This document shows, piece after piece, positions 35,087 to 39,999 of a DNA stretch of 64,000 nt. Under the pieces are notes generated by a model. It was not told the DNA's origin, ran no database searches, and was given only the letters and a program-made list of their open reading frames with translations. This DNA comes from Alphaproteobacteria bacterium (GTDB taxonomy: Bacteria > Pseudomonadota > Alphaproteobacteria > Rhodobacterales > Rhodobacteraceae), in assembly GCA_030431485.1 (NCBI GenBank), contig JAUIIR010000003.1:87422-151421 (forward strand), in the 5' to 3' direction. Each line of letters starts with the position of its first letter. The first letter of the stretch is position 1. The position numbers and the translations under genes are program-made.

Positions 35087-38000
35087 TTACGCGACCAAGC
35101 GTTCCGCCTTCTTGAGGTCAACAGACACGAGCTGACTGACACCCTGCTCTTGCATGGTTACCCCAAACAAGCGGTCCATGCGGGACATGGTGACCGCGTG
35201 GTGTGTAATGATCAGGAAGCGGGTCTCGGTCCGGCGGCACATTTCGTCGAGTAGATCGCAGAACCGTGTAACGTTAGCATCGTCCAGAGGGGCATCGACT
35301 TCGTCCAGCACACAGATCGGTGCAGGGTTGGCGAGGAACACCGCGAATATCAGCGCCAAAGCTGTCAGGGTTTGTTCCCCACCGGAAAGCAGCGACAACG
35401 TTGACAGCTTTTTACCCGGCGGTTGGCACATGATTTCCAGACCTGCTTCCAGGGGATCATCGCTTTCAACCATCACAAGGTTTGCTTCGCCACCGCCGAA
35501 CAGGTGCGTGAAGAGCAAGCTGAAATTGCTGTTGACCTGTTCGAACGCGGTGAGCAACCGTTCCCGGCCTTCTCGATTCAGGCTGGCAATGCCCGACCGG
35601 AGTGTCTTGATGGCCTCTTCGAGGTCCTGCTTCTCGGTCATCAACGTGTCGTGCTCTTCCTGAACCTCGCGCGCGTCTTCCTCGGCGCGCAAGTTCACGG
35701 CTCCCAATGCATCGCGTTGACGTTTCAACCGGTTCACGTCGCCTTCGATTGCCTCGGCGCGTGGCAGGTTCTCGGGGTCGGCGCCAAGATTGTGCAATAG
35801 ATTTGTTGGACTTGTTTCCTGCTCTTCCGCGATGCGCTCCGCAGCTGCATTCACAGCGTCCCGCGCTGCTTCGGCGCGGGCTTCCGAGCGGGCACGCGCC
35901 TCCCGCGCCTCCGATGCTTTGCGTTCTGCGTCGCGCTCCGCTTGATCGGCATGGCGCAGTGCCGCTTCACCCGTTGACAGTGCGTCATCGGCCGCGGCTT
36001 TGCGTGCCTCCGCCTGTGCGATTTCATGCCCGAGAGTGTCACGTTGAGCCGCGATCTCTGCTGGACGACCTGACGCGTCTTCAAGCTCTTTCTGTGCCGC
36101 CGCACGCCGCTCAGCGAGCTCCGCACTGCGTTTCTCGGCGGTTTCAAGTCGATGGCGCCAGCCACTAAGCTCTTTGGTGACCTGCTGCGATCGTGCTTTG
36201 CGCGCATCGCCTTCGCGGCGCAATTCGTCCTGCGCTGACCGCCGGGCCATCATGGTCATGCGGGCGGCCTCTACCGTCATCTTGAGATCTTCGACCTCTG
36301 CGCGTGCGGTGTCTAGGTCCTCAAGCTCCGTCACAGCGCGTTGGGCTTCGACCAGTTGTGCGCGGGCCCGGGTCGCTTCATCCTCGTGCCGCTTCACGGC
36401 GAGCGACAGGCTTTCGAGCTTGCCTTCAGCCATATCGCGGTCAGCTTCAGCGCGGCTGAGTTTGCGCGCGGCATCGGTCACCGAGGCATCCGCATCCCGC
36501 CTTGCCTGACGTGCAGCCTTTTCAGCCTGTGTGAGTTCCGCCAGACGCTGTGTCAGGCTTTCATGCGCCGCGCGTGCTCCATCAACACGGGCAGAGGCTC
36601 GTGCGGTCTCCTGCTTCAGCGCTTCAAGTCGATTCAGCTGTTCCAGACGCAAGGCCGCTGCCGAAGGCGCATCTTCGGCCCAGGCGCGGTATCCATCCCA
36701 GCGCCAAAGGTCGCCCTCGAGACTGACGAGGCGCTGACCTGGCTTGAGCAACGGTTGCAGTCGCACTGCATCATCAGAATCAGCCAGGCCGATTTGTGAC
36801 ATCCGCCGCGACAGCACTTCAGGCACCGACACGTGATTGGTCAGCGGTGTGATCCCCTCTGGCAGCGGCTGGGTGCTGTCATAGCGGGGCAGAGCGGTCC
36901 AACCGGTTGGCCCGTCACCCTCGACTTCTGGTGCACGCAGATCGTCAGCCAATGCTGCGCCAAGTGCTTTCTCAAACCCCTGTTCAACCTGCAAACGGTC
37001 GAGTATTTGACCACCCTCGGCAGTATCCCGGTCAAGCAGTCGTGCCAGCGCGGTGGTCTCTGCGCTCAGTGCGCTCATTTCGCCTTCGGCTTCTGACCGC
37101 TCTGCCCGCGCATCGGCTTCTCGGCTCTGCGTTTCTGCGCGGGCGGCTTCTGCTTCTGTCAACACCTGATCGGCACGTTCCGCCAGATCACGAGCCGCTG
37201 TCTGTTCCGCGTCGGCCGTAGCTGCAGCGTCTTTGGCGTTGGTCAGGCTGTGCTTCGCGGTTGCGACGGCGTCGCGTGCGCGCGCAGCGTCTGCCTCGTT
37301 CCGATCAAGGGTTTTTTGGCTGTCGGACAAGAGCCGATGGGCCGACTGATGGCGGGCGGCAAGCCGCGCGACGTCTTCGGTTTTCTGGCTCAGATCCGCC
37401 TCACGCGATTGCAGCACCGCGCTGGCGTCGCGGGCGGCTTCAATGGCTGCCGAAAGTTTGTCCTCATGTCCCTCGGCAGCTTTGGCGAGTTCTTTGGCTT
37501 CCCATTCCAACTGCTGGATCGTCTCGCCCGCATCACGGTTCAGCCCGCTTTCCCGCTCCATATCCTTTGTCATCTGGTCAATGCGGCGGGTCAGGGTTTC
37601 AATGGTTTCCTCTGCGCGGCGTTCCTGCTCGGTCAGTGTGTCGCGCTGCAGAGTCAAGCGTTGAACGATTGCTGCAGCGATAGCGGCTTCTTCGCGCAAC
37701 GGCGGCAAGGCGGCGTCGGCCTGTTCACGCGCCTTTGTGGCCTCGCGTGCGGCCATTTCAGCCTTTGCGGCTTCTGTCGTGCGCTCGCGCAGATGGGCGT
37801 CTGCGTCGGCCCGTGCGATGTCTGCATCTTTCCAACGGCGATACAGCAACAAGCCTTCCGCATGGCGCAGTTCTTCGCCAATAGCGCGATATCGCGCCGC
37901 TTGTCTGGCCTGACGAGCGAGTTGCGCCAACTGCGCAGCCAGTTGTTCGATCACGTCATCGACGCGCAGCAGGTTGGCCTCGGTGTTCTTCAGCTTCAAC

Positions 38001-38542
38001 TCGGCTTCGTGTCGCCGCTGGTAGAGACCGGAAATGCCCGCGGCTTCCTCCAAGATGCGACGACGGTTCTTCGGCTTGGCGTTGATCAGCTCGCTGATCT
38101 GACCTTGCCGGACCAACGCGGGGGAGTGAGCGCCGGTCGAGGCATCCGCAAACAGCATTTGCACATCGCGGGCGCGCACATCTTTGCCATTGACCTTGTA
38201 GGCGCTGCCAACGTCGCGGGTGATGCGGCGAACGATGTCGATCTGGTCCTGATCATTGAAGCCAGCAGGCGCAAGGCGGTCGCTGTTTTCGATCTGGATC
38301 GACACTTCGGCAAAGTTGCGGGCCGGACGAGTGGCGGCCCCTGCGAAGATCACGTCTTCCATCCCGCCTCCGCGCATCGCGGTGGGCCGGTTTTCACCCA
38401 TGACCCAACGCAAGGCCTCGAGAAGGTTGGATTTTCCACACCCGTTCGGCCCCACAACCCCGGTCAGACCATCCGCGATGATCAGGTCGGTGGGGTCAAC
38501 GAAGCTTTTAAAGCCCGTCAGACGAAGTTTGGAAAAGCGCAC
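35087..38542 (-). CDS. smc: Chromosome segregation protein SMC
   Basis: MRFSKLRLTGFKSFVDPTDLIIADGLTGVVGPNGCGKSNLLEALRWVMGE...LSGGEQTLTALALIFAVFLANPAPICVLDEVDAPLDDANV; long coiled coils and hinge. Confidence 0.96.
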   Translation of the reverse strand: MRFSKLRLTGFKSFVDPTDLIIADGLTGVVGPNGCGKSNLLEALRWVMGENRPTAMRGGGMEDVIFAGAATRPARNFAEVSIQIENSDRLAPAGFNDQDQIDIVRRITRDVGSAYKVNGKDVRARDVQMLFADASTGAHSPALVRQGQISELINAKPKNRRRILEEAAGISGLYQRRHEAELKLKNTEANLLRVDDVIEQLAAQLAQLARQARQAARYRAIGEELRHAEGLLLYRRWKDADIARADADAHLRERTTEAAKAEMAAREATKAREQADAALPPLREEAAIAAAIVQRLTLQRDTLTEQERRAEETIETLTRRIDQMTKDMERESGLNRDAGETIQQLEWEAKELAKAAEGHEDKLSAAIEAARDASAVLQSREADLSQKTEDVARLAARHQSAHRLLSDSQKTLDRNEADAARARDAVATAKHSLTNAKDAAATADAEQTAARDLAERADQVLTEAEAARAETQSREADARAERSEAEGEMSALSAETTALARLLDRDTAEGGQILDRLQVEQGFEKALGAALADDLRAPEVEGDGPTGWTALPRYDSTQPLPEGITPLTNHVSVPEVLSRRMSQIGLADSDDAVRLQPLLKPGQRLVSLEGDLWRWDGYRAWAEDAPSAAALRLEQLNRLEALKQETARASARVDGARAAHESLTQRLAELTQAEKAARQARRDADASVTDAARKLSRAEADRDMAEGKLESLSLAVKRHEDEATRARAQLVEAQRAVTELEDLDTARAEVEDLKMTVEAARMTMMARRSAQDELRREGDARKARSQQVTKELSGWRHRLETAEKRSAELAERRAAAQKELEDASGRPAEIAAQRDTLGHEIAQAEARKAAADDALSTGEAALRHADQAERDAERKASEAREARARSEARAEAARDAVNAAAERIAEEQETSPTNLLHNLGADPENLPRAEAIEGDVNRLKRQRDALGAVNLRAEEDAREVQEEHDTLMTEKQDLEEAIKTLRSGIASLNREGRERLLTAFEQVNSNFSLLFTHLFGGGEANLVMVESDDPLEAGLEIMCQPPGKKLSTLSLLSGGEQTLTALALIFAVFLANPAPICVLDEVDAPLDDANVTRFCDLLDEMCRRTETRFLIITHHAVTMSRMDRLFGVTMQEQGVSQLVSVDLKKAERLVA

Positions 38543-38722
38543 CTGCTAAGCCTGCCTGATTCCCGTTTTGAAGGACAGTGTGTCGCGGGCTGTAGCTCTG
38601 AGTCAACGATTTGATTCCGCATGTTGTAAGCGGCCCCGGTTTATCCACAAGATATTGCGGTGTTTCGCGTTTGTCTTGGAGCAACATGCGCACGCGATCA
38701 GGCCCGCTGAGCACAAGCATCT

Positions 38723-38766
38723 TTACATTCTTAATTTTGAATGTAAATATATTCCAAAATCTGAAT
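38723..38766. promoter_or_regulatory. Phased tandem ATTC-N8-GAAT palindromes (SqrR/BigR-like operator candidate)
   Basis: TTACATTC-ttaatttt-GAATGTAA (38723-38746) and ATTC-caaaatct-GAAT (38751-38766); centres exactly 24 bp apart, directly upstream of the next ORF. Confidence 0.65.
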
Positions 38767-38781
38767 ACAATGAGACTCGCC

Positions 38782-39999
38782 ATGAACCGTTCCGTTTCAA
38801 GACCTGCAGACACCTATTCGCCCATCTATTTTCTTGCCTCGTTAGGGGCGGGCGGAATCGCGGTGACGTTCTTCATGTTTCTGATGTTTTGGGTGCCACA
38901 TCCGGGGCAGCCGGTGCCTGTCTTCGAAGACATCGTGTCTGCATTCGCCAATGGCGGTGCGCCCATGCAGGCCGGAATCGCTGCCGCGCTGGTCGGGATC
39001 GCCATCTTTGCCTTTCTCAACATAAAATCATTGATCTGGAACCTGCAATCCCTGTCAGCCTTCAAGAAAACCGACGCCTATACCAAGCTGCGCGAAACCA
39101 ATGCGGAAGCCACGCTTCTAGCGATCCCGCTTGCCCTTGCGATGAGCGTCAACGCAATGTTCATCGTTGGTCTGGTCTTCGTGCCCCAGCTTTGGAGCGT
39201 AGTGGAATACCTCTTCCCAATGGCGCTGATTGCCTTTGCCGCAATTGGTGTACTGGCCTTTCGCATGATCGGCGCCTTCCTCGGCCGTGTCCTGTCAAAG
39301 GGCGGCGTGTTTGATGTGACGGCGCATAACTCCTTCGCGCAACTTTTGCCTGCCTTTAGCATTGCCATGATCGGTGTTGGCTTTGCCGCACCGGCCGCGA
39401 TGAGCACCTCGGCCACCACGGTAGCCATTGCCCTGATGCTGTCGACCTTCTTCGGCGTGGCCGCGATCCTTTACACTGTGATTGCCGCGACGACCGCGTT
39501 CGCGTCGATGCTTCAGCATGGGACTGCGCGGGAGTCCGGCCCGACGCTCATGATCATCGTGCCAATCGTCACGGTTCTGGGCATTCTCTTCCTGCGCCAG
39601 AGCCATGGTCTGCACGTCGCCTTTGACACCCATGCACAGCCCGGTGAAACGATGATCTTCCTCGCGCGGCTGCTGTCGATCCAGATCGTGTTCCTGCTGC
39701 TCGGTGCCGTTGTGATGATGCGCCAGGGGTATTTCAGCGACTTCGTGATGGGCACAAAGACGTCTCCGGGATCGTACGCTCTGGTCTGCCCTGCGGTTGC
39801 GCTGTCGGTGATGATCCACTTCTTTGTCAACAAGGGTCTTGTCGGAGCGGGTGCGATTGAAAAGTTCGGCGTCGCCTATTGGGGTGTGACCGGTATCGCC
39901 GTCGTGGCGCAGCTCGTCGCCATCGCACTGGTCTTGCGCCTCAACCGCCAGCACTTTGCCGGCCGGGCTGTTCCGGCCAACGCGGTGCCTGCTGAATAA
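38782..39999 (+). CDS. Polytopic membrane protein, about 10 TM (possible TsoY/TehA-SLAC1-like)
   Basis: About 405 aa, strongly hydrophobic; MNRSVSRPADTYSPIYFLASLGAGGIAVTFFMFLMFWVPHPG...; alternative ATG at 38770. Family name is tentative. Confidence 0.6.
   Translation: MNRSVSRPADTYSPIYFLASLGAGGIAVTFFMFLMFWVPHPGQPVPVFEDIVSAFANGGAPMQAGIAAALVGIAIFAFLNIKSLIWNLQSLSAFKKTDAYTKLRETNAEATLLAIPLALAMSVNAMFIVGLVFVPQLWSVVEYLFPMALIAFAAIGVLAFRMIGAFLGRVLSKGGVFDVTAHNSFAQLLPAFSIAMIGVGFAAPAAMSTSATTVAIALMLSTFFGVAAILYTVIAATTAFASMLQHGTARESGPTLMIIVPIVTVLGILFLRQSHGLHVAFDTHAQPGETMIFLARLLSIQIVFLLLGAVVMMRQGYFSDFVMGTKTSPGSYALVCPAVALSVMIHFFVNKGLVGAGAIEKFGVAYWGVTGIAVVAQLVAIALVLRLNRQHFAGRAVPANAVPAE

Follow-up and report, generated by a model that had tools for sequence, protein, structure and literature searches.

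Introduction

The ArsR-type repressors SqrR, SoxR and BigR leave their DNA once two of their cysteines become sulfur-bridged or oxidised (PMC9995734; PMC10451225; PMC5823870). The site of SqrR from Rhodobacter capsulatus has been deduced as ATTC-N8-GAAT (PMC9774250), and both sqr and a rhodanese gene are controlled by this regulator (PMC9995734). In Xylella and Agrobacterium, BigR shares an operon with the sulfur transferase/dioxygenase Blh and a TauE-type sulfite exporter (PMC5823870). The membrane protein TsoY, as cited in PMC13188914, was named from a three-selenoprotein operon (Haft and Tolstoy, 2025). No description of tsoY as a SqrR target was found in the literature surveyed.

In this work we present a pair of such palindromes in front of a tsoY gene, within a 64-kb stretch of alphaproteobacterial DNA (the window). 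We infer, with considerable confidence, that the pair is a double operator to which a persulfide-sensing ArsR repressor of the SqrR/BigR/SoxR type would bind, repressing tsoY until its signal arrives.

The probable tandem operator and the start of tsoY

A sequence-only reading of the window had placed two ATTC-N8-GAAT dyads in front of the gene, with half-sites starting at 38727, 38739, 38751 and 38763, and the sequence bears this out; the palindrome of a SqrR/BigR-type operator is present at 38727-38766. The full element extends over 38722-38769 and has no strand of its own. Dyad 1 (38722-38747) has the form TTTACATTC-N8-GAATGTAAA, with perfect 9-bp arms at 38722-38730 and 38739-38747 and the core ATTCTTAATTTTGAAT at 38727-38742. 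Dyad 2 (38748-38769) has the core ATTCCAAAATCTGAAT at 38751-38766. A lone ATTC-N8-GAAT dyad is expected 1.26 times per 64-kb window and is by itself unremarkable; the pair is remarkable. Dinucleotide shuffling of the surrounding 220 bp or 80 bp, repeated 20,000 times, never produced two dyads 22-27 bp apart, and the 4.66-Mb genome contains this tandem pattern a single time. A consensus scan found no sigma-70-like promoter.

The gene tsoY is read on the forward strand from 38782 to 39999. An alternative start at 38770 had been considered possible, but this ATG is a substitution within the Shine-Dalgarno site (38769-38775, forward strand), which reads AATGAGA in the window and AAGGAGA in the other Marivita, so the start is at 38782. 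On the reverse strand, at 35087-38542, lies a divergent gene for an SMC-type ATPase, identified by reading its sequence, which does not belong to the switch. In 42 of 80 loci the opposite strand upstream of tsoY encodes a protein from the same cluster as this ATPase, and in most relatives tsoY stands alone, often divergent from such a gene. The TsoY family is present in 54 of the 199 sampled Roseobacteraceae genera, more than a quarter. Two roseobacters carry tsoY on large plasmids (NZ_CP022416.1, 149143-150357, L205; CP049029.1, L206).

Conservation of the probable operator

The window was aligned with 12 other Marivita-type sequences. Across these 13 sequences all 16 half-site columns were invariant, while 15 of the 16 spacer columns varied. 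In dyad 1 both TTTACATTC and GAATGTA were invariant and all eight spacer columns varied; in dyad 2 both half-sites were invariant and seven of eight spacer columns varied. Invariant half-sites around variable spacers are the signature of a protein-binding palindrome, and the pattern indicates strong selection on the site. Thirteen of the 17 Marivita genomes contain the tandem array, once each, and these are precisely the ones with this tsoY orthologue; of the other four, three have no tsoY and the fourth has a divergent copy that lacks the array.

More widely, the 150 bp upstream of tsoY contained one exact dyad or two at most of 80 loci taken from named genomes, and a tandem or single dyad preceded tsoY in 36 of 53 tsoY-bearing genera. 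The element thus lies in the promoter/leader position and is kept in orthologues. It appears to be a double operator conserved among marine bacteria of the Roseobacter group, with further instances ahead of tsoY throughout Roseobacteraceae. The spacing was less strict. Nearby dyad pairs in orthologues were 24 bp apart in 17 cases, 25 bp in 12, 26 bp in two and 23 bp in one. The 12-nt period noticed earlier is real in the half-sites of the window and the tandem arrangement is conserved at tsoY, but the exact phase is not conserved and is ruled out as a functional rule. Nor do we uphold the exact two-turn phasing and the cooperativity derived from it, since 24 bp correspond to about 2.3 helical turns and the 25-bp spacing is also common.

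Several other arrangements were seen. A second tsoY lineage (L068, L070, L071, L073, L078, L083, L085) is without any exact dyad, and its members, including one Marivita (L070), share a (G)TCACCGT element that precedes the start by about 60 bp. Tandem sites with GAATTTGCAAATTC between the dyads (G036, G041, G050, G116, G138) have a 22-bp spacing and were set aside as a different repeat. Tandem hairpins of the form AAATTC-N8-GAATTT-GC-AAATTC-N8-GAATTT, found in several Roseobacteraceae with at most three per genome (L229, L233, L238, L240 and L242, near position 1500), are unrelated to the tsoY operator.

Candidate regulators

A search for the HTH_5 domain gave 11 matches in the genome and none in the window, in line with the earlier remark that no ArsR gene lies there. 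Two of the 11 are SqrR/BigR-type ArsR proteins, and both keep the two sensor cysteines, so a regulator of the kind anticipated does exist in this genome. The first (G000:C9) is SoxR, whose gene lies in the sox cluster, adjacent to soxS-like and YeeE-like genes; this protein matches R. capsulatus SqrR at 1.8e-35. The second is an orphan paralogue (G000:C64:17005-17283; recognition helix RQAAVSQMLARL) with 52% identity to SoxR. Its recognition helix is of the type RQAAVSQM-L, here called M-type, as opposed to RQAAVSQQ-L in SoxR and SqrR types. Both regulator types are present in all 17 Marivita genomes. The M-type proteins form one clade (SH-aLRT 100), and orthologues (L175-L191, L325-L353) occur in roughly 45 of the 199 Roseobacteraceae genera. 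None of 46 M-type loci had an ATTC-N8-GAAT site within 1.5 kb of the gene, so that no autoregulation ties this protein to the motif.

Which of the two would occupy the tsoY operator is ambiguous, because SoxR here appears to use ATTC-N8-GAAT as well. Among 53 tsoY genomes, the tandem operator was found at tsoY in 23 of 29 with an M-type gene and in none of 24 without; the six remaining M-type genomes have tsoY without the tandem form, and 11 of the 24 M-type-less genomes have a single dyad there. M-type is likewise present in each of the four genomes that have a tandem operator in front of YeeE/YedE pairs, and in G093, which has a tandem operator, it is the sole SqrR-family match. The association is phylogenetically clumped, most of it falling in one clade of the tsoY tree, for which reason the value of a Fisher test (8e-10) is not used as a p-value. 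Two genomes inside that clade without M-type, G023 and G207, have a single dyad only. Independent contrasts on supported branches differing in both traits gave one or two cases in favour and none against, which is too few for significance.

The strongest competing explanation is that SoxR alone reads the operator and the orphan paralogue plays no part. SoxR is present and closely resembles R. capsulatus SqrR, single dyads persist at tsoY in genomes without M-type, and the sox cluster of the same genome contains two ATTC-N8-GAAT sites, one in front of soxB and the other in the gap between soxX and a thioredoxin-like gene (gene names assigned by eye; SoxB is closely similar to the L297 protein, which matches TIGR04486). 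These two sites score 9.7 and 5.2 with a matrix derived from tsoY sites, far under the 42 and 36.8 of the tsoY sites themselves, and the absence of the tandem form from all M-type-less tsoY genomes, together with the case of G093, also speaks against it. We regard action of SoxR alone as rather unlikely, about one chance among four. The M-type paralogue is the likeliest occupant and its predicted binding is somewhat favoured by the evidence, while SoxR may share the site.

The palindrome elsewhere in the genome and in relatives

We scanned 199 Roseobacteraceae genomes, one per genus, with the pattern TRYATTC-N8-GAATRYA. Roughly 60 sites were recovered versus about three for a reversed-pattern control, a ratio that is only indicative, since the control differs in word composition. 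Genes adjoining these sites encode a sulfur transferase/SQR fusion, an SQR-like reductase, Blh-type sulfur dioxygenases, a rhodanese, YeeE/YedE proteins (PF04143), TrxC, SoxB, a YgaP-like transmembrane protein and TsoY. Representative downstream genes were checked with Pfam and NCBIfam, and further TrxC, rhodanese and YeeE copies were assigned by eye. The fusion was assigned through TIGR01244, while the SQR-like reductase was a weak match; one such fusion (L283:777-2564) joins a TIGR01244 sulfur-transferase domain to an SQR-like reductase and follows a single dyad of this type. A sulfur gene of this kind adjoins the site in about 18 of 44 fetched loci, a raw count with several genes assigned by eye. 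Tandem operators outside tsoY were seen before paired YeeE/YedE genes in the four genomes mentioned above.

In relatives, the site thus precedes known persulfide-regulon genes, the association that the sequence-only reading had proposed to look for. In the genome of the window this holds only for the two sox-cluster sites; the remaining 40 ATTC-N8-GAAT sites mostly score like chance with the tsoY-derived matrix, and none of those inspected points to sqr or a dioxygenase gene. The only other high-scoring TTTACATTC-N8-GAAT site (G000:C3:76103-76118; L142:6104) lies upstream of a primase-like gene, where no sulfur link was seen.

The half-site is short and AT-rich, and the palindrome might belong to a regulator of a non-ArsR family that shares the half-site, the link to sulfur being incidental. 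We consider this improbable, because the genes behind the site in relatives are, time and again, of types that SqrR, BigR and SoxR control, and the published SqrR site is identical. Functionless chance repeats of AT-rich intergenic DNA, for which one could plead that a single dyad is expected about once per window, have a negligible probability in view of the shuffles and of the one array per genome carrying the matching tsoY orthologue, and are already refuted by the invariant half-sites and variable spacers in Marivita. The conserved site, the two regulators and the same palindrome at sulfur genes in relatives agree with the operator type proposed originally, and control of tsoY by a SqrR/BigR-type repressor is well supported by these comparisons.

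The TsoY protein

The gene product, of 405 amino acids, had been described as an orphan membrane protein. In the sense of family-less this was wrong, as it matches the TsoY family model NF047644 over its full length with 517.8 bits (curated cut-off 150 bits). The selenoprotein model NF047643 gave 62.9 bits, below its cut-off of 250 bits, and in place of the in-frame UGA-encoded selenocysteine of that family the protein has a cysteine, Cys336, at the selenocysteine of the UxxV motif. This cysteine is invariant in 40 orthologues. A search of Pfam, SLAC1 (PF03595) included, gave no match for the protein of the window; one of 40 orthologues matched SLAC1 (9.8e-5).

The AlphaFold2 model (pLDDT 89) has ten long helices, as in the ten-helix fold of the SLAC1/TehA (TDT) anion channels. 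These channels were the sole convincing neighbours of the model in the PDB, with top Foldseek matches at probability 1.00, target TM-scores up to 0.74 and E-values of only about 1e-3. A profile search of the PDB gave no sequence-level homology to TehA, and an hhalign comparison with one TehA-like protein was negative, so we speak of a predicted SLAC1/TehA-like fold and not of a proven family relation.

TsoY is tied to sulfide oxidation independently of the operator by a gene cluster in G400, a distant proteobacterium from another Pseudomonadota family (L445:678-9342). There it is encoded on one strand together with a TehA/SLAC1-family protein, an octaheme cytochrome of the tetrathionate-reductase family, a Blh-type sulfur dioxygenase and a sulfur transferase/SQR fusion. 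The cluster also contains a cytochrome b-like gene, and a gene for a CsoR-family repressor is found slightly further upstream.

Proposed control and role of TsoY

By analogy with SqrR, SoxR and BigR, repression of TsoY most likely lasts until persulfide is present. The reduced repressor would sit across the tsoY promoter/leader, one dimer per dyad, and block transcription. Upon oxidation of sulfide to persulfide or polysulfide, a sulfur bridge would cross-link the two sensor cysteines, the cross-linked repressor would leave the DNA and TsoY would be made. A switch of the persulfide-sensor type before tsoY suggests that the protein is made to deal with reactive sulfur. It could do so by transporting sulfite, hydrosulfide or a similar sulfur anion through its SLAC1/TehA-like fold; we put forward such transport tentatively, at slightly less than even chances. 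TsoY may then play a part comparable to that of the sulfite transporter of the BigR operon, with a different fold.

A more far-reaching scheme joins two proposals, and as a whole we find it doubtful. The M-type clade would read the twin operators at tsoY and at YeeE/YedE pairs, with SoxR acting separately on sox genes, and TsoY would be a persulfide-induced sulfur-anion channel of SLAC1 fold, with its conserved Cys/Sec involved in gating or in the sensing of sulfur.

A persulfide-type operator is the first regulatory clue to the role of TsoY found in the literature surveyed. Together with the sulfide-oxidation neighbourhood and the SLAC1-like fold, it turns this family of (seleno)proteins into a testable sulfur-anion channel. 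The pairing of tandem operators with M-type, in turn, provides a natural example in which two persulfide sensors would share out a single motif.

Comparison with known systems

Among the closest systems is SqrR of R. capsulatus, with which the locus shares the half-sites, the N8 spacer and the family of two-cysteine ArsR-type regulators; sqr-like and rhodanese genes are likewise among the targets in the relatives studied here. It differs in having two tandem dyads 24-25 bp apart, and in its likely occupant, which belongs to a distinct paralogue clade with Met for Gln in the recognition helix. The BigR operon similarly combines a persulfide-sensing ArsR repressor with sulfur oxidation and a membrane exporter, whereas here the membrane protein is TsoY, of predicted SLAC1/TehA-like fold, encoded by a stand-alone gene with its regulator elsewhere. 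Hyphomicrobium denitrificans, with SoxR and sHdrR, likewise has two SqrR-family paralogues with overlapping target sites in one alphaproteobacterium (PMC10451225; PMC12423496); there both control sox/shdr clusters, while here one is an orphan linked to tandem operators before tsoY and YeeE/YedE pairs. The TsoY selenoproteins (NF047643/NF047644) are of the same family as the protein of the window, which has Cys336 at the UxxV position; it is the Cys form and is encoded far from any Tso operon. The kind of motif is thus already known, and the TsoY target and the pairing of tandem operators with M-type are new, as far as the surveyed literature shows.
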